A program made the translations under genes and the position numbers. 44,315 bases of DNA. It comes from Candidatus Delongbacteria bacterium (GTDB lineage: Bacteria; UBA4055). The notes below the pieces were generated by a model. It was not told where the DNA came from, did no database searches, and saw only the letters and a list, made by a program, of their open reading frames with translations. The DNA is taken from contig JAFGVM010000051.1 of the NCBI GenBank assembly GCA_016937995.1, positions 1 through 44,315 of the forward strand, in the 5' to 3' direction. Positions 22,081 through 36,606 of this stretch are shown here, piece after piece; the first letter of the stretch is position 1; the number at the start of each line of letters is the position of its first letter.

Positions 22081-24000
22081 TTAATTAATTCTGCTTAATA
22101 ACTTTTTGATGTCAAATGGTTTATCCAGAATATCCTCTGTGTAACATGGATTATCCTTGTACTTGGATAGATTGTCAGAACCGTATCCGGACATAAGGAC
22201 AATTTTGATACCGTCTACTCTACCAGTGATATATTCTTTCAGATCAAAACCATTACCGTCTTCAAGTATAACATCTATCAAACCTATATCTATTTTTCCT
22301 TTATAATTGTCCACTGTGTATTGTGCAACTTTACAACTAGGAGAGTAGAGTACTTCATAACCTGCTTTGAGCAGCATTTCTCCTATTGTCAATCTCAGAT
22401 CATCGTTATTTTCCACTAACAGGATCGTTTTATTGGTTATGTTAACGTGTTCTGTATAATCATCTTTAAAATTATTCTCAATATATCCGACATGTTCAGG
22501 GAAATAGATTTTAAAAGCTGATCCCTTGTCTATCTCAGATTCAACTTCTATAACTCCATTATTTTGTTCCAGTATATTAAAAACAGTTGATAATCCCAAA
22601 CCGGTTCCTTTACTTTCAGATTTAGTTGTAAAAAATGGGTCAAATATTTTTTCAATTGTTGACTTATCCATTCCTGTTCCTGAATCAACAATGCTGAGAC
22701 AGATCAGTTGCTGGTTGTTTTTTAAATTTTTAAGATCTCCGTATATTTTGTGTTTTTCTCTTGAAATTTCTAGCTTTAACATTCCTCCATTCGGCATAGC
22801 ATCTCTTGCGTTAACGACCATGTTAATAACTACCTGCTCAAAATGAATTGGATCACATAGTACCAATGCTTTATCGTTCGTAAAAACAAGTTCCAGTTGA
22901 ATTCTTTCATCCAGTACTGCTTTTATCATGTTCTTCATTTTATTTATATTTTCGTTGAGGTCCGTTACTACAGGTTCAAACTTATGCTTACGACTTAATG
23001 TAAGCAGAGATCTTGTCAGTTTAGATGCACTTTGAGTTGTATCTATAATATTTTTTAATCTTTCTTTTGTCTTTTCTGATAGTTGTCCATCCAGTAGTGA
23101 TAACTGGGCGGATACTAAAATGATCTGAAGATAATTGTTATAATCATGGGCAACACTTCCGGACAACTTACCTATAGCATCCATTTTTTGTGCCTGAAAA
23201 AACATTTCCTCAAGTTTTTTATACGTTGATATATCTCTTATCGTACCCACATATTTATAATTTTGTGAATTATCTATCTGTTTCCTTGAAATATTCAGTG
23301 AGCACTTTATGTCTGCATCATCATTATTTATTAGATCAATCTCATAATTGATTAGATCCTCTCCTGAAGCCAATCTGGAAATAATATTATCGTAATCTGA
23401 TCTTTGCTTAAATAGAAAACTGAAAAGAGAACCTTTGAGTTCATATCTGCCGTATCCTAAAATATTCTTCACTGAAGGGGTTATGTCTAACAGTTGTCCA
23501 TTACTGGTGATCTCAAAGTATATATCCTGTATGTTCTCGAACATCATTCTATATTCTTTTTCGCTTGAAACTAAAGCTTCCTTAAGGATTTTTGATTCCA
23601 GCAATTGAGAATATCTGGCATGAATTTTAATTATCTGGTCATAAAGAGTTTTATAATCCTTGAATTTCGGGAAAAAATCCATTGCACCCAGTTTCATGGC
23701 TTCAACAGCTGTTTCAACTAAAGTATCTGCAGTAAGGAATAGGAGGGCAAAATTTTCCATTTTAGTATCAAGTTTTTGCATGATCTCAAAACCGTCCATA
23801 CCCGGCAGTTTATAGTCTAAAAGCACAACATCAACATTATTACCATCGGTATTTAAGTATTCAAAAGCTTCAATACCGTTCGTAATTATTTTTAATTCGA
23901 TATTGTAAACATTTAAAGCTTTTGATATCAGATAAATATCATCTTCACTGTCTTCTGCTAAAAGGATCTTTAGGGTTGGAATGTCTGTTTTATAGTTCAT
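22081..24000 (-). CDS. REC-PAS-kinase-REC hybrid
   Basis: 639 residues with receivers at both ends. REC1 (10-130) has E16/D17 and D62 (LLDYKLPGMDG), with K in DFFPKFKDY. A PAS domain (about 150-265) precedes a dimerisation helix with LSGSVAHDYNNYLQII, H285, of the H-D-x-N-N class. The ATPase has NMVVNARDAMP, DSGTGMDKSTIEKIFDPFFTTK and GTGLGLSTVFNI. REC2 (about 520-639) has a phospho-acceptor aspartate in GLIDVILEDGNG and K-P near the C-terminus, but one residue of its usual acidic pair is Asn (LVENND). It is the first gene of the eight-gene leftward run, with AGGAAA ahead of the ATG. I found no convincing promoter in 24001-24177. The double-receiver layout suits passing phosphate both in and out. 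Confidence 0.93.
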   Translation of the reverse strand: MNYKTDIPTLKILLAEDSEDDIYLISKALNVYNIELKIITNGIEAFEYLNTDGNNVDVVLLDYKLPGMDGFEIMQKLDTKMENFALLFLTADTLVETAVEAMKLGAMDFFPKFKDYKTLYDQIIKIHARYSQLLESKILKEALVSSEKEYRMMFENIQDIYFEITSNGQLLDITPSVKNILGYGRYELKGSLFSFLFKQRSDYDNIISRLASGEDLINYEIDLINNDDADIKCSLNISRKQIDNSQNYKYVGTIRDISTYKKLEEMFFQAQKMDAIGKLSGSVAHDYNNYLQIILVSAQLSLLDGQLSEKTKERLKNIIDTTQSASKLTRSLLTLSRKHKFEPVVTDLNENINKMKNMIKAVLDERIQLELVFTNDKALVLCDPIHFEQVVINMVVNARDAMPNGGMLKLEISREKHKIYGDLKNLKNNQQLICLSIVDSGTGMDKSTIEKIFDPFFTTKSESKGTGLGLSTVFNILEQNNGVIEVESEIDKGSAFKIYFPEHVGYIENNFKDDYTEHVNITNKTILLVENNDDLRLTIGEMLLKAGYEVLYSPSCKVAQYTVDNYKGKIDIGLIDVILEDGNGFDLKEYITGRVDGIKIVLMSGYGSDNLSKYKDNPCYTEDILDKPFDIKKLLSRIN

Positions 24001-24177: not shown

Positions 24178-24393
24178 TCAATTGAACAATGGGTTGTTAG
24201 ATCTACAGAAACCTTTCTTAAACTTATACTTTTTTAACAAAATAGTCATGGAATGATCTTCATTTTCCATTTTAACTGCGTGGATCTTCTTAACATTTTG
24301 TGGTGTATCCTTTACAAAATATGCAGCAACTAGATTTATGCTTGTTATCTGCAAAATTATGACCAGTACGATCTGAATAATTTGTTTTCCCAT
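24178..24393 (-). CDS. Small secreted or membrane-anchored protein, unknown
   Basis: A 71-residue protein. Residues about 4-24 are strongly hydrophobic (IIQIVLVIILQITSINLVAA), consistent with a signal peptide cleaved near V-A-A or with a single membrane anchor. The rest is short, basic and ends CRSNNPLFN. A clear AAAGGAAG ribosome binding site precedes the ATG, which supports a real gene. It lies 111 bases after the pilin-like gene at 24505-25002 on the same strand, with no obvious terminator between them, so it may belong to the pilus locus. I do not recognise the family. Confidence 0.6.
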   Translation of the reverse strand: MGKQIIQIVLVIILQITSINLVAAYFVKDTPQNVKKIHAVKMENEDHSMTILLKKYKFKKGFCRSNNPLFN

Positions 24394-24504: not shown

Positions 24505-25002
24505 CTAATCATTTGAGTATAATGTTAAGTTTATTGTATCCTTATACGAACCTGCCAACTTTTCTTTTGTAGGAAAATTTGATTTTTGACCAAGACTGAT
24601 ATTGAGAACGAAATTTTCAGATCCTAATTTCCCCAAACCATCAGTAGACATTATTCTTACAGGGTTCTCCAAATTTGATTTTTCTTTACCTACGTTTATC
24701 GAATAAGACAGATCATTGTTGCCGTTACTAAGTTTTCCCTTATTTGATGATTCTGCTGTTAATTCCCAACCTGTTAATGTGCTGTTGGAAATATTTATAC
24801 CTTCAATTATTTTTATGTCATCGTAATTCATACGTTCGTTTGATCCAAGATCTATCGATCTGTTATTGTAATTACCTACAGTAATCTCGTTTGCAGGAAT
24901 TATTCTCACTGCTATTTCACCCTTACTTGTAGTTTCGGCATTCATTTGCAACATAACGACCAAGAGTGCTATTGATATGATATGTTTTAATATGCTTTTC
25001 AT
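24505..25002 (-). CDS. Secreted pilin-like protein (second subunit candidate)
   Basis: 165 residues from the ATG at 25002. A GTG at 25011 is in frame, but the AGAGG ribosome binding site overlaps it and suits the ATG. A signal peptide (MKSILKHIISIALLVVMLQMNA) is followed by a beta-rich domain of about 140 residues with no cysteines in the mature part. The C-terminal strand GSYKDTINLTL resembles the G-x-Y-x-D-T-x-x-x-x-x ending of spore-coat-U/archaic pilins, and matches the ending GTYVETLTITLAAD of the major pilin at 28652. Together with the usher and chaperone next door this suggests a minor pilus subunit. It is not a typical two-domain tip adhesin, being too short. A sigma-54 promoter match lies 33 bases upstream of the start. 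Confidence 0.75.
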   Translation of the reverse strand: MKSILKHIISIALLVVMLQMNAETTSKGEIAVRIIPANEITVGNYNNRSIDLGSNERMNYDDIKIIEGINISNSTLTGWELTAESSNKGKLSNGNNDLSYSINVGKEKSNLENPVRIMSTDGLGKLGSENFVLNISLGQKSNFPTKEKLAGSYKDTINLTLYSND

Positions 25003-25034
25003 TTTTTGCACCTCTTCTCTATAACTTCTTATAA

Positions 25035-25050
25035 AGCATATTCTATGCCA
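25035..25050 (-). promoter_or_regulatory. Sigma-54 promoter for the pilin-like gene
   Basis: Reading leftward the sequence is TGGCATAGAATATGCT. It has the invariant GG at -24 and GC at -12 separated by exactly 10 bases, against a consensus of TGGCAC-N5-TTGCA/T. A transcript would start near 25025, just before the AGAGG ribosome binding site of the gene at 24505-25002. A downstream factor-independent terminator of the usher operon separates this promoter from the genes to the right. Confidence 0.8.
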
Positions 25051-25122
25051 ATCTTTTTTTATCGATAAGCATGCCCGTAATTTTTCAATTCAATACTTTT
25101 TTTGTAACAATTCAACTATTTT

Positions 25123-25137
25123 AAGTATCCAATACTT
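25123..25137. promoter_or_regulatory. Palindrome, candidate activator binding site
   Basis: AAGTAT-CCA-ATACTT is a perfect inverted repeat (6-base arms, 3-base spacer) about 73-87 bases upstream of the sigma-54 promoter at 25035-25050, a normal distance for an enhancer-binding protein site. Related words (AAGTAT, then ATCCATACTGGAT) occur at 33090-33110, about 90-110 bases upstream of the sigma-54 promoter at 32985-33000. No clear copy is seen upstream of the pilin promoter, so the assignment is tentative. Confidence 0.3.
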
Positions 25138-25175
25138 GATCAATAAAATCATTAATTCATCATTCAGTTTTTTAG

Positions 25176-25209
25176 AAAAAAAAAGATGAACACGTTATTC
25201 CTGTTCATC
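25176..25209 (-). terminator. Factor-independent terminator of the pilin-chaperone-usher operon
   Basis: On the minus strand, GATGAACA pairs with TGTTCATC around a nine-base loop and is followed at once by nine T residues. It lies 34 bases after the usher stop codon. This is a textbook intrinsic terminator and isolates the usher operon from the sigma-54 promoter at 25035. Confidence 0.85.
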
Positions 25210-25242
25210 CTTTTAATTTACCCTATATGAATTTAAAAGCTG

Positions 25243-27795
25243 CTATTTCTTCAGATAATTATATTTAAATTTTTTATTTTCATTTACTTCTAAAGAACCA
25301 AGCTGGCTGTAGCCATGCTTATTTTCTTTTAAAATTTTGATCTTGATGGATTGATATTTATCTGAATCAAATTCTATTGTATAACTGCCCGGATTCAATC
25401 CATTGATGAAAAAATAACCACCCTTATTTGTAAATATATCTTTTTCTTCTTCTTGCGATTTACCGAACGGCACAACTCTTGCGGTAACATTTTCCAAAGG
25501 CCGGTTGTCCTTATCTACCAGACGTCCACGTGCAAACACATAAGGTTTAGCCTCAATATCTATCAGAAAACCACTTTTATATGTAGGTAACAATATTTGT
25601 TCACCTGCATTCGCTTCATATCCAACCGGGATATCCGGTAGCTCAATATCAAATTGGTGAACTTTGTATGGTGTTAAACTAGAATATACAGCCGGTCCGA
25701 ACAGATCGGATGAGTATTGATACAATCCCTTACCATATCTTTGAATTCCAACTCTATGCCCTTCGAGCACACTGTTGGTCCTTACTATCGCAAAACTGTT
25801 CCTCACAGGTTTGCACCAGCCAAATTTACCATTAACAAAAACTAAAGCAGTATTGGCAGACATATTAATTTCGTTATCAATTGATCCTTCAAATGTATTT
25901 TCAAATCTATAGTTCAATGAAATATCACCCCTATTCCCTGAATATGAGGCCTTTTCACTTACTGTAATTTTATTAATTTCTGAATAGTTCGATGTAATAT
26001 CATTCCTGAATTTATTATTTGTTGAATTATAATACCAACTTAAGCTGGACCTGTTATCTGTACTGTTGTAAGTTGAATTCAACACATTGCCCGTTTTGGG
26101 TTTGAAGATAAAATTCAGACTGGCACGCCAATCATTTTTTTCTCCAATTGCTTTGAAATTACTTACTGAGCATGAGATCTTAAAGCTTGATGAAAATATT
26201 TTTGACATTGATAATGAATAAGAATAGAAGTCAGAATTACTAAGTTCATTAAAGCCGTAAGATGTACTCAATGCTGAATTAATTGATCTTGTAATATCCT
26301 GACTCACAAATCCCGTCAATATATAGTTAATATTGTTATCTGGGATCAGAACATTTAAATTTGAGAATTGATTCCCTTTGTATTCAAAAGAAGCTTTCCA
26401 TTTTCTTCTGTAAGGATTTTTATTTAAACTGTTATTGTAATAATCATAGGATAATTTACACGCATAATCTATGCTTACGGAATCAGTTTTACTTATTGCC
26501 ACATCAGTATTAAAATTACCAAGACCTGTACTAAAATTACTTCCCACACCAAAAAGCATTTGATCCAATTTTACCTGAGCATAACTTCCAAGCGTTATCT
26601 TATTGTTAAAACCTCTTCTGAAGAACATTGACAATACCGGATCCTTCTGATCGTATTCATACATATTATCACCATAATAGCTAGCAAATCCTAAATTGAA
26701 TGAATATTGATTAAGTCCTTCTTGTAATTGCTGACCATTACAGAACGAATCAATATTTATTTCCTGAATTTCACCCAGATCATTCTCTATTTTTAATCTC
26801 ACCTCGTTTATTCCATGCTGATATGAAATTTGCCTAAGATTAAAAGGTCCGGGATCGACCTTGATTTTCTCTACTAATATATCATTAGAGTATATTTCAA
26901 TATTGGAAGTCCTGTAAATAATAATTTCATTCATAGAGATCGGTTTTGTTGATGAATAAGGTTGCAGATTAAATTCCTTTGTTATGGAAATACCACCAAT
27001 AGAAGGTGATGTCTGATAACCTGTAATCGGGATATTGAGATCTCCCAGATAATACCTTAACATTCTATCCGGCTGATCATAAACAATACAGGTTTTACCT
27101 ATTTTATAAGTATCTCCTTCTGAAAAATCACCTACACTTTCAAGAACTAATCCATTAATATTTAAAGCACCGTCTAAATGCAAACTGAAAGGATATCTTT
27201 CAAATTCTTCAGTTTCTATATTATTCTTAACGATCTGACTGCTTCTAATATTCAGGAATGAACTCACAATATCAGGTCTAACTGCAAATTCCACATTTTT
27301 TGGTGCACCGTCATTACCATATTTGGTAACATTTACCTTTCTAAGATCCGGAGGAATGATCAATTTGAATTCAAGATCATTTTCATCATAATTCGATACT
27401 ATTCTATTTTCCAGTAGGAACGATAAACTTACAGTACTCTCTTTTAATGTTTTACTGACAAGATTTTCCAGAGATTTTCTATCTAAATATTCCTTTAATT
27501 CATTTAACAGAACATTTTTTCTTACATGAATTTGACCACCGCTTTTTTTAAGGAATACTTCTATTTTACCTACTTTTTGGTCGTTTATATAGAATGGCAC
27601 TAATAATTTGAATGGTTTTTTTTCTTCATAGCCAAATACTTTTTTGAACAAAGTGTCATAGTCAGTATCGTTCAAATTTGGATCACTTGACGCAAAATAC
27701 TTCTTATTAGCAAATGTTACTTGCATAGTCACAAGTAAAATCAATATTATCGATCTGGCTATAGTTTTCAATTTATCTTTCCTTAAGCTCAACAC
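25243..27795 (-). CDS. Outer-membrane usher of a chaperone-usher pilus
   Basis: 850 residues: a signal peptide (IARSIILILLVTMQVTFA), then an N-terminal domain, a long region of alternating aromatic beta-strands suited to a 24-stranded barrel (about 190-700), and C-terminal beta domains. Usher hallmarks include the plug-type stretch IYSNDILVEKIKVDPGPFNLRQI followed by G-I-N-E-V-R-L-K-I, matching the family's V-x-P-G-P-F-x-L pattern, and GDLNIPITGYQTSP near the start of the barrel. The C-terminus (ARGRLVDKDNRPLENVTARV, then TNKGGYFFINGLNPGSYTI) resembles the family's carboxypeptidase-regulatory-like end domain. It would translocate and polymerise pilin subunits. The start overlaps the end of the chaperone gene by 23 bases, so the two are translationally coupled. 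Sequence is divergent from proteobacterial ushers; length is typical. Confidence 0.85.
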   Translation of the reverse strand: MLSLRKDKLKTIARSIILILLVTMQVTFANKKYFASSDPNLNDTDYDTLFKKVFGYEEKKPFKLLVPFYINDQKVGKIEVFLKKSGGQIHVRKNVLLNELKEYLDRKSLENLVSKTLKESTVSLSFLLENRIVSNYDENDLEFKLIIPPDLRKVNVTKYGNDGAPKNVEFAVRPDIVSSFLNIRSSQIVKNNIETEEFERYPFSLHLDGALNINGLVLESVGDFSEGDTYKIGKTCIVYDQPDRMLRYYLGDLNIPITGYQTSPSIGGISITKEFNLQPYSSTKPISMNEIIIYRTSNIEIYSNDILVEKIKVDPGPFNLRQISYQHGINEVRLKIENDLGEIQEINIDSFCNGQQLQEGLNQYSFNLGFASYYGDNMYEYDQKDPVLSMFFRRGFNNKITLGSYAQVKLDQMLFGVGSNFSTGLGNFNTDVAISKTDSVSIDYACKLSYDYYNNSLNKNPYRRKWKASFEYKGNQFSNLNVLIPDNNINYILTGFVSQDITRSINSALSTSYGFNELSNSDFYSYSLSMSKIFSSSFKISCSVSNFKAIGEKNDWRASLNFIFKPKTGNVLNSTYNSTDNRSSLSWYYNSTNNKFRNDITSNYSEINKITVSEKASYSGNRGDISLNYRFENTFEGSIDNEINMSANTALVFVNGKFGWCKPVRNSFAIVRTNSVLEGHRVGIQRYGKGLYQYSSDLFGPAVYSSLTPYKVHQFDIELPDIPVGYEANAGEQILLPTYKSGFLIDIEAKPYVFARGRLVDKDNRPLENVTARVVPFGKSQEEEKDIFTNKGGYFFINGLNPGSYTIEFDSDKYQSIKIKILKENKHGYSQLGSLEVNENKKFKYNYLKK

Positions 27796-28519
27796 TTATA
27801 TTTCCGAATGGAATTTCTTCAGGCCATAGTATCTTGTATCTGCGAGTACTTTTGGCTAAGATAGAAGATATCATTTTTGGAATATCTTTTGATGTTAACG
27901 TAATCTTTTTTGAACCTTTCTCAGGATCATCGTCACTCACATAACTAATTTCAAAGCAATAAGATGAAAGATCCCCATGCTTATTTCCGGAATTTTCAAC
28001 AATTATTTCAAGTTCCTGTTCTCCATCTGAATTCACTGGAGAATTTATTTCTTTTAAAGCTATTTTAGGAGCACTGTTTTCTGATTCTATATACAGTCTC
28101 CCTTCATAATTTTTTTTAACTTTTACTATTGCGACCTTATTATTATTTTTCCTTTCATTTTCAGGGAGTAATACTTCTTTGCATAGTACTGTGTAACTTT
28201 TCTCAATATCAAACGAAGGCTCCCCTGCCCATCTGATTTGAACGGATCTTTTCTCACCTGCATCAAGGATGAATTGAGCAGGATAAATTATAAAATCATC
28301 ATAAACCACTTCTCCCTGAATATGATTACCGTCAATATCTTTAGAAAATTCGTTTACGCTTATGTCAATTGGAACAACATTTTCTGATTCATTTTTCAAC
28401 GTGTAAATAAAGCTTGAATTTATCCCTGAAGGTGATAAAGTTACAGTTGGTGGAGAAAATGTGTATGAATATAATATCCCGTTCAGCAATATCGATATCA
28501 GTACAATAATTTTATTCAT
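27773..28519 (-). CDS. Periplasmic pilus chaperone (PapD/FimC-like)
   Basis: 248 residues from the ATG at 28519, which has GGGAA six bases upstream and begins a good signal peptide (MNKIIVLISILLNGILYS). An upstream in-frame ATG at 28621 would add 34 residues, encoded inside an inverted repeat, and is unlikely. The mature protein starts FSPPTVTLSPSG and has the first immunoglobulin-like domain features of pilus chaperones: N-E-S-E-N-V-V-P-I-D-I-S, DFIIYPAQFILDAGEKRSV (the F-x-x-x-P-x-x-x-x-L-x-x-x-x-x-x-x-V pattern) and QIRWAGEP. A second beta domain contains LKEINSPVNSDGEQELEI. It would donate a strand to pilin subunits and deliver them to the usher. Its stop overlaps the usher start. Confidence 0.85.
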   Translation of the reverse strand: MNKIIVLISILLNGILYSYTFSPPTVTLSPSGINSSFIYTLKNESENVVPIDISVNEFSKDIDGNHIQGEVVYDDFIIYPAQFILDAGEKRSVQIRWAGEPSFDIEKSYTVLCKEVLLPENERKNNNKVAIVKVKKNYEGRLYIESENSAPKIALKEINSPVNSDGEQELEIIVENSGNKHGDLSSYCFEISYVSDDDPEKGSKKITLTSKDIPKMISSILAKSTRRYKILWPEEIPFGNISVELKER

Positions 28520-28542
28520 TTTTATTCCCTTTTTGTTGCAGG

Positions 28543-28640
28543 CTAAATAGGTAATACCGGTTATAATGATCATAACTTTAGGGAGAAAAGTTATAATTTT
28601 ATGTAAAATACTGAATAACATTATACCGGTATCCTATTAG
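28543..28640. repeat. Nested inverted repeat between pilin and chaperone genes
   Basis: Outer arms lie at 28543-28568 and 28619-28640. One reads CTAAATAGGTAATACCGGTTATAATG and the other, read in the opposite sense, CTAATAGGATACCGGTATAATG; they pair apart from small bulges. An inner perfect hairpin has ATAACTTT at 28572-28579 and AAAGTTAT at 28587-28594. In the operon mRNA this would form a long double hairpin 12 bases after the pilin stop and 24 bases before the chaperone start. It could set the pilin-to-chaperone ratio by termination, attenuation or mRNA protection, or be a small MITE-like insertion. Confidence 0.8.
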
Positions 28641-28651
28641 CTTGTTAAGAA

Positions 28652-29182
28652 TTAATCTGCTGCCAGTGTGATTGTTAGGGTTTCAACGTATGTACCTACC
28701 AGTTTAGTTGAATGAGCTGCAGAAGCAATATCCATTACCAGATCGAACGAGTAATCTACTGTTGGAGTTGTAGCTGTTCCGGTTGGTGATATGGTCGCTG
28801 TACCTGAAACAAAAGTCAGATCAGCACCTGCTGCAGGAGCAAGTGTAAGGCCTGTTCCAAGAGTCCCACTAACATTAGCAATTTGCATTGTGTATGCAAT
28901 TGTTTGGTCCGGAGTATGATCAGCACAAGTAAGAACTTCCGACCCATCAATACTCATTGTCCATCCGAGTTCGCTATTATCGTTTACTGTCAGACCGGAA
29001 ACTACTGTTAGATCTGTAACATCCGCTCCTACAGTTAAAGCTGAGGCATTACCATCTGTAGGGAAAGTTCCGCCTGAAAATGCAAAAGTTGATGCTATTG
29101 AAACCTCTGCATCTCCACTTATTGCAAACACATTTGTTAAACCCAGTAGCATCATTGCTACGATCATTACCATTTTTTTCAT
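28652..29182 (-). CDS. Major pilin of the chaperone-usher locus
   Basis: 176 residues with a signal peptide (MKKMVMIVAMMLLGLTNVFA, cleaved after V-F-A). The mature part of about 156 residues is rich in Thr, Ala, Gly and Val, beta-strand in character, with a single cysteine and therefore no disulfide. The C-terminal strand KLVGTYVETLTITLAAD fits the G-x-Y-x-D/E-T-x-T-x-T ending of spore-coat-U/archaic pilins. Its base and residue composition is less AT-rich than its neighbours, as expected for an abundant surface protein. It is first in the operon, has a strong AAGGAG ribosome binding site and a sigma-54 promoter match 61 bases upstream. The chaperone and usher follow, so it is most likely the main shaft subunit. 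The fold is inferred from context and the C-terminal motif. Confidence 0.8.
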   Translation of the reverse strand: MKKMVMIVAMMLLGLTNVFAISGDAEVSIASTFAFSGGTFPTDGNASALTVGADVTDLTVVSGLTVNDNSELGWTMSIDGSEVLTCADHTPDQTIAYTMQIANVSGTLGTGLTLAPAAGADLTFVSGTATISPTGTATTPTVDYSFDLVMDIASAAHSTKLVGTYVETLTITLAAD

Positions 29183-29242
29183 TTTTTTCTCCTTGTTTTT
29201 TTCTGGAATTACCCGATTAATTTGTGTACTACAATCATTCTT

Positions 29243-29258
29243 TGCAAACAGTATGCCA
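29243..29258 (-). promoter_or_regulatory. Sigma-54 promoter for the pilin-chaperone-usher operon
   Basis: Reading leftward the sequence is TGGCATACTGTTTGCA, with GG and GC separated by exactly 10 bases and the preferred TTGCA at -12. It differs from TGGCAC-N5-TTGCA by one base. Transcription would start near 29232, about 50 bases before the pilin ATG. The divergent gene upstream encodes a sigma-54 activator. Confidence 0.87.
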
Positions 29259-29377
29259 AAGTTCTTCTAAACAATGTTTTAGACTCATTTTATCTACATT
29301 TCAACTTAAAATGGAGATTTTATTTAACAATGATCTAAATTTGAACGACCTTGCCTAAATACTATTTTTATTACATG

Positions 29378-29406
29378 TTGCACAATTATATTACATTACT
29401 TATATT
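29378..29406 (+). promoter_or_regulatory. Sigma-70-type promoter for the sigma-54 activator gene
   Basis: TTGCAC at 29378-29383 and TATATT at 29401-29406 are separated by 17 bases, each hexamer one or two bases off consensus. The predicted start near 29413 leaves a leader of about 29 bases with GGTGGAG before the ATG at 29442. Confidence 0.6.
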
Positions 29407-29441
29407 ACTTTCCTTACATTTAATTTTTTGGTGGAGCAAAT

Positions 29442-31286
29442 ATGAAGAAATTGTGTTTTGTCTTTAACAGTAAAGAGAATACCAAGCGGTTTCCCGTTCT
29501 TATCGAAGAGCTTAACAGGACAAAGCTCAAAAAATCGGATTATGATATTTTTGACTCTGTTCTGGAAAAGAACAAACCTATTAATTGGAATAAATACAGT
29601 ATTATATTTGTACATTATACTGATCTTCAAAAATATGAGGAAGAATTCTATGATTCCGTTAAGAATTATAAAGGTAAAGCTGTTTATTTTTCAGGTGGAG
29701 TGTATAACTTTAAAGAAATCTCGGATAATGAATTCTCTTTGAACTACACTTATATGATAAAAGGTCTTCATGATTTTATTTCCAACTATCTAAAAACTAA
29801 TGAACCTGACTTTTCAATATTCAAAAAAATAATCATTAACAAAGACGATTATAATGAGATCATTAAAAGTAGCAACCTTCATAAAAAACTTGATAATTTT
29901 AATTATAACAAAATCATTGAATATTTAGAAACAAATTCTCAGGATAAAAAGATCTTATTCGTTGATGATGATATTTCTAATGAACTTCTAAAAAAATCCA
30001 ATAGAAACTTATTTTTAGCTAATAATTATAACTTGGCTGTTGAGTTTATCAAAAATGAGAATATTGAAATAGCATTATTGGATATTGAGTTGGAAAGTAT
30101 TGAATACAGTGGCTTTGACCTGATCAAACTACTACTGAACAGATCAAAAAATACAAAGATCATAATGCTCTCTGGATATGATAATTTTGAGATAACCTAT
30201 AAAACTTATCTTGCAGGTGCAAAACATTTTATATCAAAAGATAATTTTAATTTTGATTATTTTAAGTGCATCTTTAATTTGATCGATCTTGAAAATGCTC
30301 CGTTTATTGTAGGTAAAAGTCCGGTGACATTAAAAATGCACGAGTATCTGGCTTTCTACTCAAGATTTCATGAAGATGTAATGATTTACGGTGAAAATGG
30401 TACTGGCAAGGAACTTATAGCCAGATCTCTCTATCATATGGGAAAACATAAAGGGAAGATGATAACCAAAAATTGTGCAGGTATACCTGAAACATTATTT
30501 GAAAGTGAAATGTTCGGTTATAAAGACGGAGCATTTACCGGCGCATTAAAGGGCGGAAAAATCAGTCCTTTTGAAGAAGCAAAAGACGGAATATTGTTTC
30601 TTGATGAGATCGGAGAGCTACCATTAAATCAGCAGGTGAAATTACTTAGAGTTATTCAGGAAAGAGCTGTAACACATTTAGGTACAAGCATATCAACAAA
30701 ATTCAACACACGGCTCGTATTTGCAACTAATAAAAATCTGTTAAAAGAAACTGAGAACAACCTCTTCAGAGTAGACCTGTATTACCGTATCTCTGGAGCA
30801 GCTATCAATGTTCCACCTCTAAGAGATAGAAAAGAGGACCTTGAATTATTAATAGCATTCTTTACAAGTAAATTTTTCAAACGGAATAAGGAATTTTTAA
30901 AAATCGCACCATCAGTGTCACTGCATGATAAGACAATTGAAAGATTACTGAATTATGATTTTCCCGGAAATATACGTCAGCTTGAAAAATTGATCTATCA
31001 ATCAATAATGAAAATGATCGTTGAGAATAAGAAGATCCTTACAATAGAGATCCCTCAAAAAATAAATACTGATAATTCAAGAACAGATAAATCCCATATC
31101 GTTATCGAAGAGATAATTGAACTGCTTAGAAACAAAGTTTTTACAGCTAAAGGATTGCAAAAAGAATTAAAAAAAGATGTGATCAGATATTTGGTCAACA
31201 AGAACCATACAAACAAAGATATTGCAGAACTTTTCAATATGAATGAACAATCAGTAAGGAACCTTCGATTCGAACTAAAGATTTAA
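29442..31286 (+). CDS. Sigma-54-dependent transcriptional activator with receiver domain
   Basis: 614 residues. The first ~165 residues match no family I recognise. REC at about 170-290 has the acidic cluster LFVDDD, phospho-acceptor D214 (LLDIELES) and K in HFISKDNF. The AAA+ domain (about 300-530) has Walker A GENGTGKE at 317-324, an intact sigma-54-contacting loop GAFTGA at 363-368, Walker B LFLDEIGEL, and the arginine-finger region FRVDLYYRISG. The C-terminus (about 560-614) has a helix-turn-helix (NKDIAELFNMNEQSVRNLRF). It should bind upstream DNA as an oligomer and use ATP to open sigma-54 promoters. It is divergent from the pilin operon and is the only receiver protein here with a recognisable DNA-binding output, so it is the likely end point of the kinases in this window. 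Confidence 0.93.
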   Translation: MKKLCFVFNSKENTKRFPVLIEELNRTKLKKSDYDIFDSVLEKNKPINWNKYSIIFVHYTDLQKYEEEFYDSVKNYKGKAVYFSGGVYNFKEISDNEFSLNYTYMIKGLHDFISNYLKTNEPDFSIFKKIIINKDDYNEIIKSSNLHKKLDNFNYNKIIEYLETNSQDKKILFVDDDISNELLKKSNRNLFLANNYNLAVEFIKNENIEIALLDIELESIEYSGFDLIKLLLNRSKNTKIIMLSGYDNFEITYKTYLAGAKHFISKDNFNFDYFKCIFNLIDLENAPFIVGKSPVTLKMHEYLAFYSRFHEDVMIYGENGTGKELIARSLYHMGKHKGKMITKNCAGIPETLFESEMFGYKDGAFTGALKGGKISPFEEAKDGILFLDEIGELPLNQQVKLLRVIQERAVTHLGTSISTKFNTRLVFATNKNLLKETENNLFRVDLYYRISGAAINVPPLRDRKEDLELLIAFFTSKFFKRNKEFLKIAPSVSLHDKTIERLLNYDFPGNIRQLEKLIYQSIMKMIVENKKILTIEIPQKINTDNSRTDKSHIVIEEIIELLRNKVFTAKGLQKELKKDVIRYLVNKNHTNKDIAELFNMNEQSVRNLRFELKI

Positions 31287-31321
31287 CTAGTGAATTACAC
31301 TATAATTTAATATATTCTGCT

Positions 31322-32386
31322 ATGGAAAAAGTTAAAGTACTGATATCCGACAATAATACTCAATTGCTTAATTTGAACGCAGATCTTCTGTTAAGTGCGT
31401 TCAATGACGATATACGGGCAACACCAAACAAAGATGAAGCTATTGAACTTCTTAAGACATTCAAACCTGACATTCTTGTAACTGATATTAATTTCAATTC
31501 AGATGATGACCCAAAGCAATCAGACCTGATGGCAATAGCCGGTGTAACTATCGCAAGGGCCGCCAGAATTAACTGCCCGTTCATAAAGATCATTGCGAGC
31601 AGCGGCTATAGAAATGATGATCTTGTATTTCAGAAAATACTGGAAAAGGACTGGTACGATGAATTTCATACAAAAGGAACTGTCGGCTTACTTGATCTTT
31701 ATAAAAAACTAAGGTACGAAGTATTAGTTTTTAAAACAGGATTAATTCCGAAATTATCAAAATTTTTTGCTCCTACGAATTTTGGATGGGAGATCAATAA
31801 AAGTATTTACCGTTTATTGCATACGAACTATACAAGAGAAGAAAATCTGCTTTACCTTGATGATATAGTTGAATATTACAATTCTTTTAAGGATATGCTG
31901 GATAAAAAGAATATGCTTCTGCTTGATAATTTCTTTGAAACATACAAAGAAAGAGATGTTACAGACCATGAGAGAGAATATGTAAAGGAATCATTTTATT
32001 TTTCACCACATGAATTACCTTATTCAAATAATTTTCCGAGAAGAACTTTATACTGTGAAAAAAATATTATCCTTGGCATCTGGAATAAAATAATCAGTGA
32101 AAGCAGAGATAATTCAGTAATTGATAAAGTAACTTTTTCATGTGATAAGAGCGATTTCATAATGAAGTTCACAATAATTCAACCTAATGAATTCGATTTT
32201 AAAAAATTTATCAGCTCGAACAAAACTTACTATCTCTATAAAACCATAAACAATTACGGAAACATGATAATAAAAAGTAATGATAAGGAATTAGATATTT
32301 TAACAGGTGTAATTAAGGAGAATGAGAATAAAATTGATGGTACGATCATTGACCTTTCTCTTAAGATCATACCCACATCAAAATAG
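31322..32386 (+). CDS. Receiver protein with unusual, possibly kinase-derived C-terminus
   Basis: 354 residues. REC at 4-135 has D10, D55 (ILVTDINF), switch IIASSGY and K in FHTKGTVG, with an insertion of charged residues after D55. The remaining ~220 residues have no clear family. The end (NIILGIWNKIISES, then YYLYKTINNYGNMIIKS, then DLSLKIIP) follows the order of a histidine-kinase ATPase domain (N-box helix, last helix plus G-x-I, final strands) but lacks the D-x-G-x-G and G-x-G-x-G motifs and any H-box. A degenerate HATPase is therefore possible but unproven. It starts 35 bases after the sigma-54 activator, is probably cotranscribed, and has no clear ribosome binding site; a TATAAT lies at 31301. 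Its neighbour makes it a candidate modulator of the activator. Confidence 0.8.
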   Translation: MEKVKVLISDNNTQLLNLNADLLLSAFNDDIRATPNKDEAIELLKTFKPDILVTDINFNSDDDPKQSDLMAIAGVTIARAARINCPFIKIIASSGYRNDDLVFQKILEKDWYDEFHTKGTVGLLDLYKKLRYEVLVFKTGLIPKLSKFFAPTNFGWEINKSIYRLLHTNYTREENLLYLDDIVEYYNSFKDMLDKKNMLLLDNFFETYKERDVTDHEREYVKESFYFSPHELPYSNNFPRRTLYCEKNIILGIWNKIISESRDNSVIDKVTFSCDKSDFIMKFTIIQPNEFDFKKFISSNKTYYLYKTINNYGNMIIKSNDKELDILTGVIKENENKIDGTIIDLSLKIIPTSK

Positions 32387-32394
32387 CAGGATAT

Positions 32395-32859
32395 TTATGA
32401 AATAAAGCTCATTGTTAACCAATTGAGATTTTCTGTGGATTTGTTTTTAAGATTCCCGATCTCTCCCAAAGATTCAAGTATTTCACTTAATCTGTTCTTA
32501 TCTAACGGTTTTACAAAATACTCAATAATTCCTAGATCAATGGCTTTTCTAACATCAGAATCGTTCCTGGAAGTAGTTAATACAACTACTGGCAACCCAC
32601 TCAGTAATTCATGTTTTCGAATTTCTTTTAGAACTTCAAAACCATCAAATTCAGGCAGATTCAGATCTAATATCGTAAGATTTGGCAGTGCTTTTGCTGA
32701 TGCTCGGTCATGGAATAAATAATTCAGTGCTTTTTTACCATCATCAACATGATCTATCGTAGATATCTTTTCTATTTTTTCCAAGGTCATTCTAGCGATC
32801 ATGGCATGATCCGGATTATCTTCTACCAGCAGTACTTTAAATTCTTTATCCGTTTTCAT
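32395..32859 (-). CDS. Single-domain response regulator (Rcp1-like)
   Basis: 154 residues, receiver plus a short tail: LLVEDNPDHAMIAR, phospho-acceptor in TILDLNLPEFDG, switch VLTTSRND, and K-P in EYFVKPLDKNRL. It is a close paralogue of the first 150 residues of the protein at 33126-33728 but lacks its cysteine-rich tail. It is convergent with the gene ending at 32386, only eight bases away. A sigma-54 promoter match lies 126 bases upstream of its ATG, which would place a phosphate-carrying receiver under the control of the neighbouring activator. Confidence 0.92.
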   Translation of the reverse strand: MKTDKEFKVLLVEDNPDHAMIARMTLEKIEKISTIDHVDDGKKALNYLFHDRASAKALPNLTILDLNLPEFDGFEVLKEIRKHELLSGLPVVVLTTSRNDSDVRKAIDLGIIEYFVKPLDKNRLSEILESLGEIGNLKNKSTENLNWLTMSFIS

Positions 32860-32984
32860 AATTTTACCTGTTCTTTTTATTTATAAAATTTCATAAATCT
32901 CTTTGCTCACGAACCTTTACTCCTGAATGTACTCATATTTTATTTCAATATGTATTCGGTTATTCTTTCCTGACAATACTAATT

Positions 32985-33000
32985 TGCAATATTTATGCCA
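32985..33000 (-). promoter_or_regulatory. Sigma-54 promoter for the receiver gene at 32395-32859
   Basis: Reading leftward the sequence is TGGCATAAATATTGCA. GG and GC are 10 bases apart and the -12 element is a perfect TTGCA, with one mismatch to TGGCAC-N5-TTGCA. The start would be near 32974, leaving a leader of about 115 bases. The surrounding 32860-33125 holds no gene. Confidence 0.85.
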
Positions 33001-33125
33001 ACTATTTCCCATTGTGTTTTTCATAGCTAAATATCAATTTCTACAACTGTTTTGAATTGTTGGAATAATATTAATAGTACAAATTTCAAAGTATCAAATC
33101 CATACTGGATATTTATCGTATCGGA

Positions 33126-33728
33126 TTAGTTTAGGTGATTTTTATAATGTTTTTCAAGACACTCAGGACAAACACTATGACTAAATTCAACTTTTATATC
33201 ATCTGAATATTTTTTGTCAAATAATTCCCAAAGACCTTTTTGATTTCTGATCTTTTGACAATGACAACAAATAGAAATAATTCTTTTACAATTAAGTTCT
33301 TCCAAAGATTTATTTTTTAAATTTTTAACCCTATCAATTGAATCAAGAATCTCTGAAAGTTTTTCATGATCTAAGGGTTTTATTAAATATTCTATTACTC
33401 CTAGATTTATGGCTTTACTCACATCAGATTCATGTTCAGAAGTTGTTAGAACTACAACAGGTAACTGACTAATATTTTCATGATTTCTTATCTCTTTTAA
33501 TACTTCAAAACCATTAACTTCAGGAAGATTGAGATCAAGTATTGTTAGATTTGGAAGAACTTTTGCTGAAGAATCCAGATCAAATAAGTAATTCAGTGCC
33601 TTTTGACCGTCTACAACATGATCAACTTTAGATATCCTATCTAATTTTTTTAATGTCATTTTAGCTATCAGTGCATGATCAGGATTATCTTCGACCAACA
33701 AAACCTTACATTCTCTTTTTTCATTCAT
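33126..33728 (-). CDS. Response regulator with C-terminal cysteine-rich (zinc-type) tail
   Basis: 200 residues. Residues 6-150 are a receiver (LLVEDNPDHALIAK, TILDLNLPEVNG, VLTTSEHE, EYLIKPLDHEKL). Residues about 155-200 contain ICCHCQKIRNQKGLW and, 25 residues later, SHSVCPECLEKHY. This C-x-x-C ... C-P-x-C arrangement, with the preceding K-I-R-x-x-x-G-x-W, recurs at the C-termini of many PAS and receiver signalling proteins and is suited to bind zinc; its role is not established. The receiver closely matches that of the gene at 32395-32859, so the pair arose by duplication with loss or gain of the tail. AGGA precedes the ATG. No sigma-54 match lies upstream; a 12-base inverted repeat does. 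Confidence 0.9.
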   Translation of the reverse strand: MNEKRECKVLLVEDNPDHALIAKMTLKKLDRISKVDHVVDGQKALNYLFDLDSSAKVLPNLTILDLNLPEVNGFEVLKEIRNHENISQLPVVVLTTSEHESDVSKAINLGVIEYLIKPLDHEKLSEILDSIDRVKNLKNKSLEELNCKRIISICCHCQKIRNQKGLWELFDKKYSDDIKVEFSHSVCPECLEKHYKNHLN

Positions 33729-34371: not shown

Positions 34372-36606
34372 CTATTTTTGAATCATTTCGAACTGAGACA
34401 ACAGTCCTTTGATCTTTTCAATATATCCACCAACGTGTACGTTGTTCTGATCTTTCTTGATATTAGTATACTCTTCAAGAGAGTTTTTGAGATATTTTGA
34501 TGCTTTTTTGATCTTTCCTTTTTCTATGTAAATTTCTCCTAGGTACATTTTTGCATTCGCAGATATTACTTCAAGTTTTTGATCTTTGGAATTTTTAATA
34601 GCCCGGTTGAAATAGTACACAGCTTTATCGTAGCTACCCATAGATGCCAGAGATTTTGCAATTGAGTTCTCAAGATAAGTAAGATAGAATTTTATTTCTT
34701 TTTTCTCACACTCAATACGAGCTTCGTGGAAGTACTTAAGTGATTTTTTATACTCTTTTCTTAAATAATGGATATTTCCCAGATAGTGTAGATTTACTAT
34801 ATATTCGACAGGATAATACTTTTTCCATTTATTTACAGGAATGGATGTGATCGATTTCGAAAAATACTCATTTGAAAGTTCATATTTGGAGTTTTTATAA
34901 TAATACATACCCAATATTCTGCAACTGTCAGACAAATACCTCGGTTTCTTCAGCTCAACTGACAGTTCTTCTAATCTCGTTATTAATAATTTTATTGTCC
35001 TTGGATTTTTTTTCATCGCAAAGGTATATATATTTAAAAGATCTGCTGTGCTTTTAGCTTCAAGTTTTTTTTCTCCTATTTTATTAGCAAGTTTATTGAC
35101 TATTAGAGATGCTTTTTCAGACTCCTCATATTTGTTTAAATAGTAAAACAAGATACTTTTCAATCCATATCCTAAGGCTAGCTCTCGATCATTTCCTTCA
35201 CTTTTTGCTTTTAAAATATAATTATCAGCTACTACCAATCCTGAATTAAATTCAGTTAAAGCTATGTGTTTATATATTTCAGAGCTATATAATTTGTAAA
35301 TTCCCTTAACAGCTTTACTTTTTGAATATGCTTTCATCGCATAATTAAAAAACAATACTGCCGAAATCATATCAGATTCACTCAGTTTTATCATACCCAT
35401 AATGTGAAACGAATCACCAAGTTCCATCAGATAAGACCTTTTTGATGATAATTTGATATTTTCTGTCAACAACTTTTCGGCAACATCATAATTTTCAATG
35501 TAATAATAAAGATCAGCTTGCTTGATATTTACTTTTGTTCTCAATTCATCACTGTCATTTAAATTATTGCATGTTACCAGAATTTTATGATAAATATTTA
35601 TTGCATTTTCAAAATCAAAATTTATTTGTGCTCTATCTCCATATGCTTCGATTTCTTCTAGAGTCTCCAGGAGCAGTTTATTTTGATTACTGGGAATAGA
35701 TACAGTTTGCCAAAAATCTGTAAATCGTACTATTTTATCAATATCCTGAATGAAATTATCAACAAATATTGGTGGTATAATAATATTCTCTGCATATATT
35801 CCGCCTGCAGAATCAACTTTATTATTGCCTAATACAAGCTCTTTATAAATACTTTTTATGAGATGCTTATGTGAAAACAGATCCGATCCAATTTCAATAT
35901 TACTTTTTGATGTGTTTAGATCTTTGTTAATAGTAAGATTCGTATCGTGCTTGGAAGTTACAAAACGTTTAATGTTTGTATCATAAATTTCGTTTCTTTT
36001 AAGATTTGGTATATTACTTTGGATCGCATAATTCGAATTTATTAAACCCTTATTTTTCAAACTTGAAAGAACATAGTCGATGAATATGCTGATATTCATA
36101 CTGTTTTTCTCAAGAGAATATCCTATAAATTTATTATGTGAAATGTTATCCTCTATGTTGATCTGATAAACAGAGTGAATCTGACCTTCAATATTGACTT
36201 TTGATAAAACATTTATGTAAACACTAAAACTCTGCACAGGGTTAAATTTGGAGATATCTCTTTTATTTTTTTCATACCTTATCCTTTTTAATTTTCTTGA
36301 AATTAAAGCTAAACTACAATCCAGATTAAATTCTTTTTTAATATTCTTTAAGCTTTTTTTTGGATTATCTTGTTTGAATTCCCAGATAATGTTTACTAGC
36401 TTTTCATCAAGTTTCTTTTTCTGATTATCTTGTTTCTTTTTTCGTACAAGCCCTTCTAAACCTTGATTTTTATACCGTTTTATCCAGTTGGCAACAGTGT
36501 TCCTTCCCAGCTTATAATGCTCAGCAGCAGTAATGATATTATGGAGTTGAGCATAACCTATCACTTCATTTTTAAAATCTACTGAGTAAGATCTTTGTTT
36601 TTTCAA
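34372..36606 (-). CDS. Transposase-derived N-terminus fused to TPR repeats
   Basis: 744 residues, TTG start (no in-frame ATG upstream before a stop). Residues 1-60 form a transposase-type helix-turn-helix (YSVDFKNEVIGYAQ, then NTVANWIKRYKNQGLEGL). Residues about 65-110 are a second basic helical segment, and about 125-215 follow the layout of an IS3/IS481 integrase core (VYQINIEDNISHNKFIGYSL, then FIDYVLSSLKNKG). The catalytic positions appear lost: the first Asp region reads YINVLSKVN and the expected T-D-N-G reads QSNIPN. Residues about 320-740 are at least eight tetratricopeptide-like helical pairs (for example YYYKNSKYELSNEYFSKSI and AKMYLGEIYIEKGKIKKASKYL). It lacks flanking inverted repeats that I can see, so it is not an active insertion sequence but probably a domesticated regulator. 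Confidence 0.8.
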   Translation of the reverse strand: MKKQRSYSVDFKNEVIGYAQLHNIITAAEHYKLGRNTVANWIKRYKNQGLEGLVRKKKQDNQKKKLDEKLVNIIWEFKQDNPKKSLKNIKKEFNLDCSLALISRKLKRIRYEKNKRDISKFNPVQSFSVYINVLSKVNIEGQIHSVYQINIEDNISHNKFIGYSLEKNSMNISIFIDYVLSSLKNKGLINSNYAIQSNIPNLKRNEIYDTNIKRFVTSKHDTNLTINKDLNTSKSNIEIGSDLFSHKHLIKSIYKELVLGNNKVDSAGGIYAENIIIPPIFVDNFIQDIDKIVRFTDFWQTVSIPSNQNKLLLETLEEIEAYGDRAQINFDFENAINIYHKILVTCNNLNDSDELRTKVNIKQADLYYYIENYDVAEKLLTENIKLSSKRSYLMELGDSFHIMGMIKLSESDMISAVLFFNYAMKAYSKSKAVKGIYKLYSSEIYKHIALTEFNSGLVVADNYILKAKSEGNDRELALGYGLKSILFYYLNKYEESEKASLIVNKLANKIGEKKLEAKSTADLLNIYTFAMKKNPRTIKLLITRLEELSVELKKPRYLSDSCRILGMYYYKNSKYELSNEYFSKSITSIPVNKWKKYYPVEYIVNLHYLGNIHYLRKEYKKSLKYFHEARIECEKKEIKFYLTYLENSIAKSLASMGSYDKAVYYFNRAIKNSKDQKLEVISANAKMYLGEIYIEKGKIKKASKYLKNSLEEYTNIKKDQNNVHVGGYIEKIKGLLSQFEMIQK

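Follow-up and report, generated by a model that had tools for sequence, protein, structure and literature searches.

A predicted sigma-54 regulon of pilus and signalling genes in a Delongbacteria genome

In the genome of an uncultured Delongbacteria bacterium, one activator appears to act through three sigma-54 promoters on the genes of a chaperone-usher pilus, of a second protein resembling pilins and of a small signalling protein. The window, the whole stretch of 44,315 nucleotides analysed here, corresponds to contig C95 in a draft genome of 2.75 Mb (G000). The case that its activator has a sigma-54 regulon is good at the level of sequence, being made by the predicted promoters, an enhancer motif, conservation in relatives, an rpoN gene and an intact activator. 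The original prediction of a pilus regulon held for the promoters and for the receiver-bearing activator, and gained from a motif shared upstream and from a divergent gene arrangement kept in a member of the same genus (G001). Its picture of a regulon gathered around one cluster held for the three promoters of the window and was too narrow beyond them, where a surface protein on contig C36 and a polysaccharide operon on contig C18 also appear to belong. A broader regulon of surface structures and signalling proteins is well supported at the level of sequence. The features concerned are collected in Table 1.

Table 1. Predicted genes and regulatory elements of the pilus locus (window coordinates).
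Feature	Coordinates	Strand	Remarks
Hybrid histidine kinase after pilin 2, candidate cognate kinase	22081..24000	-	Gene order also in G001 (L082)
Pilin 2, pilin-like secreted protein	24505..25011	-	18% identical to pilin 1; G-W and G-x-Y columns in common
Putative sigma-54 promoter, pilin 2 gene	25035..25050	-	TGGCATAGAATATGCT, one mismatch
Putative tandem enhancer, pilin 2 promoter	25093..25128	-	ATACTTAAAATAGTTG, GTTACAAAAAAAGTAT, 20 bp apart
Predicted intrinsic terminator in the usher-pilin 2 gap	25176..25214	-	Fold -16.2 kcal/mol, z -5.1, then T run
Outer-membrane usher with C-terminal carboxypeptidase-regulatory-like domain	25243..27795	-	PF00577 1.2e-14, 54.6 bits against cut-off of 27.1
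Probable periplasmic chaperone	27773..28621	-	PapD_N E 3.1e-4; true start probably 28519
Pilin 1 (176 aa)	28652..29182	-	80% identical in G001
Putative sigma-54 promoter (-24/-12), pilin 1-chaperone-usher operon	29243..29258	-	TGGCATACTGTTTGCA, exact match
Putative enhancer, pilin 1 promoter	29359..29394	-	Strong copy 29359-29374 (GTAATAAAAATAGTAT), weak copy 29379-29394
Sigma-54 activator	29442..31286	+	PF00158 1e-51; PF00072 receiver 9.8e-11
Partner protein beside activator	31322..32386	+	Degenerate receiver, helical region, possible kinase-like C-terminus
Single-domain receiver	32395..32859	-	PF00072 3.4e-23
Putative sigma-54 promoter, receiver gene	32985..33000	-	TGGCATAAATATTGCA, exact match
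Putative tandem enhancer, receiver promoter	33044..33080	-	GTACTATTAATATTAT, CAATTCAAAACAGTTG, 21 bp apart

Promoters were sought with the pattern TGGCAYN5TTGCW, with GG-N10-GC spacing, and the counts given here come from pattern searches over the whole genome and from a control sample of 400 kb. The three leftward sites originally predicted are present, two exact and one with a single mismatch, and a check of the sequence placed GG and GC ten bases apart in each. Every one lies in an intergenic gap and, as had been claimed, before a gene, at 24 bp (pilin 2), 61 bp (pilin 1) and 126 bp (receiver) from the listed start. Across the genome there are 9 exact matches against 2.9 expected under a second-order Markov model, a surplus that is modest in number; the 8.5-kb region has 2 against 0.009 expected under the same model. 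The placement of the exact matches is more telling than their number, all nine being intergenic compared with an intergenic share of 8.1% in the 400-kb control, and the genome-wide check thus spoke against random density in coding sequence. A weight matrix at a score of at least 14 gave 20 hits per Mb of control, or about 0.17 expected in the region, where three leftward upstream sites reach this score; a further match lies within the usher gene and points in the opposite direction. One-mismatch matches are mostly noise (109 genome-wide versus 70 for the reversed pattern). The seven exact sites outside the window lie before clpB, groES-groEL, htpG, hsp20, a receiver-PAS gene, a polysaccharide-type operon and a secreted protein, of whose gene only the start is present before the contig end cuts it.

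The sigma factor and activator that such promoters call for are both encoded. The genome has a single rpoN, an intact frame of 492 codons on contig C11 (PF04552, E 4e-56), and the original description of an activator with an intact GAFTGA loop and a receiver domain was borne out by the Pfam matches and by conserved residues. The protein consists of an N-terminal domain of about residues 1-165, a receiver, an AAA+ domain with GAFTGA, a lid and C-terminal helices. GAFTGA, the Walker A motif and the Walker B DE are invariant in the three homologues, and the receiver pocket (D175-D176-D177, D214, S244 and K266 in the numbering of the window protein) is equally so at D175-D177, D214 and K266, with S or T at 244. 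The homologues in G006 and G011 are 45% and 43% identical, and a search turned up no named relative of the activator. At the C-terminus the structural model has four helices, with a conserved Q-S-x-R-N segment and no Pfam match to a helix-turn-helix (HTH). The nearest solved structures to the receiver and AAA+ part are NtrC4 and NtrC1 of Aquifex and NtrX of Brucella (3dzd, 1ny5, 4l4u, 5m7p), relative to which the window activator has about 165 extra N-terminal residues. This segment (29442-29940) is alpha/beta in the model, gave no Pfam match, and is present in G006 and in part in G011. The genome holds just two convincing sigma-54 activators, judged by strong scores to the sigma-54 interaction domain: the window protein and a protein of 384 residues on contig C66, which adjoins an LptE-like gene. 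Homologues of the partner protein adjoin the activator in G006 and G011; its model is of low confidence (pLDDT 57) and weakly matches the fold of the hybrid response regulators LvrB and PorX, too uncertain a fold for a function to be drawn from it.

Upstream of the promoters lies a candidate enhancer of two tandem 16-mer copies, about RTAMTWWWAATAKT, 20-21 bp apart. The copies have their centres some 50 to 128 bp ahead of the -24 element in five pilus-group promoters of this genome, namely all three in the window, with a weak second copy at pilin 1, and those of the C36 surface protein and the C18 polysaccharide operon; they also precede two orthologous promoters in G001 and pilin genes of a related genus. 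Each promoter was scored with its own orthologue group left out of training and compared with a 400-kb control. Scores of 30.7 (C36 protein), 22.0 (pilin 2) and 20.1 (C18 operon) were equalled by no control hit, and that of the receiver promoter (16.8) by one. Pilin 1 scored 9.7, with 40 equal control hits, because one copy alone is strong; that copy falls within the longest block upstream of the promoter conserved with G001. The seed copies were first chosen by eye, which leaves the held-out scores of the training promoters short of full independence. The sister species G002 was not used in training. Two of its promoters, retrieved with one half-motif and the promoter pattern and having their second copies outside that pattern, scored 31.2 and 28.2 with no equal control hit in 400 kb. 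One stands before a gene that seems orthologous to that of the C36 surface protein, the other before that of a STAS-domain protein (G002 C74, L148), which has the full enhancer and a sigma-54 promoter and suggests that the regulon may include further signalling proteins. The enhancer evidence is strong, yet not wholly independent, and it supports the view that a common motif ties the three window promoters to one regulator. The receiver-PAS gene on contig C25 has an exact promoter and was left out of the regulon, the tandem motif being unconvincing there, with a score of 7.3 and 84 control hits.

Comparison with twelve further members of the Delongbacteria phylum (G001-G012) answered in part the question of whether relatives keep the three promoters. 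G001 retains promoter and enhancer at both pilin 1 (TGGCACGTAATTTGCA, L081:267) and pilin 2 (TGGCACAGTATTTGCA, L082:1818), and the first copy of the pilin 2 enhancer is identical there. In G001 an activator reads divergently from pilin 1, its first 27 residues being visible before the contig breaks off. An activator divergent from a sigma-54 promoter recurs in G006 and G011: in G011 the neighbours are pilins with a sigma-54 site, and in G006 an unrelated gene, not a recognisable pilin, with a consensus-perfect site. No sigma-54 site was found upstream of the closest homologues of the receiver in G001, G002 and contig C75, orthology in G001 and G002 being uncertain, so that support for the third promoter comes from its own sequence.

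The pilus genes were identified with differing certainty. The usher exceeds its Pfam cut-off, its profile found no match among solved structures, and among named sequences its nearest relatives come from Candidatus Delongbacteria MAGs. An usher 41% identical (L153, JAFDLS010000184.1) is filed under Deltaproteobacteria, possibly from a misassigned Delongbacteria bin. The chaperone, at 21.2 bits, is slightly below the curated PapD_N cut-off of 23, and a homologous gene stands next to the usher in the C36 locus, G001 and G003. Pilin 1 can be aligned to the pilins at the C36, G003 and G011 loci. Neither pilin nor any of the homologues has a significant Pfam match to a known pilin family, and identification as pilins is based on position and a common C-terminal pattern only. 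The ATG at 25002 is probably the true start of pilin 2. The pilin 1-chaperone-usher operon is predicted to end at the terminator between usher and pilin 2, a similar hairpin being readable in G001, and pilin 2 would therefore need a promoter of its own. Contig C36, which begins with the sigma-54 promoter of the surface protein, has a second pilus operon of two pilins, a chaperone and an usher 48% identical to that of the window (L085, L086). No sigma-54 site was found upstream of this operon or of that in G003, and we therefore dropped the notion that sigma-54 drives every chaperone-usher pilus in these bacteria.

The surroundings of the locus are rich in signalling genes. Pilin 2 is followed in both the window and G001 by a small ORF (located by eye at about 24178-24393 in the window) and then by the hybrid histidine kinase, which makes the latter a candidate cognate kinase. 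About a dozen two-component genes form an island beside the pilus locus (171-24000), including hybrid kinases, receiver-PAS proteins, single receivers and a CheB-CheR-kinase-like fusion. The receiver gene has a tandem relative at 33126-33728, 69% identical and with a C-terminal CxxC...CxxC extension, upstream of which no sigma-54 site was found. A single fused frame at 34372-36606 combines a transposase-like helix-turn-helix, an integrase-like part and a TPR region.

By their upstream DNA, the sigma-54 promoters of the genome separate into this pilus group and a heat-shock group. The latter has -24/-12 sites at clpB (C6, L094:270), groES-groEL (C37, L092:8049), htpG (C39, L091:9287), hsp20 (C90, L093:7106) and, as a near-match, dnaK (C14, L129:8163); hsp20 of G005 likewise has a consensus site (L137). 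These five promoters carry one to four TGTCA/TGACA repeats each, and the tandem 16-mer gave no signal at the four of them that were tested, as would be expected if the second activator serves them. This heat-shock regulon probably belongs to the C66 activator. Such a group was to be expected, since sigma-54 control of heat-shock genes is already known in Bacteroidota (PMC12316311).

The existence of a second full activator on C66, together with the ability of such activators to act far from their own genes, leads to the alternative that the promoters are real and that the C66 protein drives the pilus and receiver genes while the window activator serves something else. We regard this as improbable: the tandem motif is shared by the pilus-group promoters and missing from the heat-shock group, and in G001 and G011 it also precedes the promoter from which the activator homologue diverges. 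On this correlation, the window activator rather than the C66 one would bind the motif.

A somewhat better, though still unlikely, alternative would limit the true targets to pilin 1 and pilin 2 and make the receiver promoter recent or non-functional, with no part in feedback. The missing sites at the nearest receiver homologues would fit it, as would the long spacing of 126 bp to the start codon; against it are the exact -24/-12 match combined with an enhancer score equalled once in 400 kb, and the recurrence of the enhancer copy GTACTATTAATATT in the promoter of the G002 STAS gene. The view that a degenerate consensus was simply matched by chance in AT-rich DNA is hardly credible. It would agree with the merely mild enrichment of one-mismatch matches, and we rejected it because the exact matches are all intergenic, two of the three window promoters are kept in G001 and the enhancer motif accompanies them.

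In our view the activator encoded at 29442 is likely to be a sigma-54 enhancer-binding protein that is controlled by its receiver and drives the regulon through the tandem 16-mers. Bound at these probable sites upstream of the -24/-12 promoters, it would reach the RpoN polymerase by DNA looping and so activate the pilin-chaperone-usher operon along with pilin 2, a separate gene, and the receiver gene, as well as at least two promoters elsewhere, those of the surface protein and the polysaccharide operon. Phosphorylation of its receiver would be the input, and the receiver product (32395) may act back on the relay. Control by the activator of its own gene is plausible because the pilin 1 enhancer sits 48-83 bp before its start codon. 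More tentatively, the whole may be a surface-identity switch in Delongbacteria, in which one phosphorelay-controlled sigma-54 activator would govern the pilus, the second pilin, a large surface protein, polysaccharide genes and signalling parts of its own (the receiver and, in the sister species, the STAS protein), and would thereby feed back on the relay by which it is driven. The predicted targets lend themselves to individual tests, since the genome has just two convincing activators and the two enhancer motifs are separable.

Type IV pilins and flagella are under sigma-54 control by receiver-bearing activators such as PilR, FlrC/FleR and FlbD. The system predicted here shares with these an activator that joins a receiver to an AAA+ domain, possibly with a C-terminal HTH such as theirs, as well as the -24/-12 promoters and a surface appendage as target; it differs in that the appendage would be a chaperone-usher pilus and that the regulon would also take in a surface protein, a polysaccharide operon and a receiver gene. 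To our knowledge, the regulators PprA-PprB and BfmRS are not sigma-54 activators. Both place chaperone-usher pili under two-component control (PprA-PprB on CupE, BfmRS on Csu), and the sources cited do not present them as sigma-54 activators (PMC5507470; PMC7315123). The window activator would resemble them as a phosphorylation-controlled regulator of a chaperone-usher operon. The claim that no such control had been described stood, the literature searched, which left subscription journals largely outside, yielding no sigma-54 activator of a chaperone-usher pilus and no description of a combined sigma-54 and receiver control logic for such pili. The phylum itself is mentioned there only in passing, and the present prediction gives it a motif-defined regulon of one activator. 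The sigma-54 regulons predicted in Bacteroidota and Planctomycetota include GroEL, GroES, DnaK and small heat-shock proteins, with CheY-like receivers (COG0784) among the targets; that study offers promoter predictions rather than a motif-defined regulon of one activator, and its main text has no words beginning with usher or fimbria (PMC12316311). Sigma-54 has been linked to flagella, pili and the bacterial exterior (PMC3162934), and the regulon proposed here would extend this known theme, sigma-54 governing the cell exterior, to a new class of appendage.
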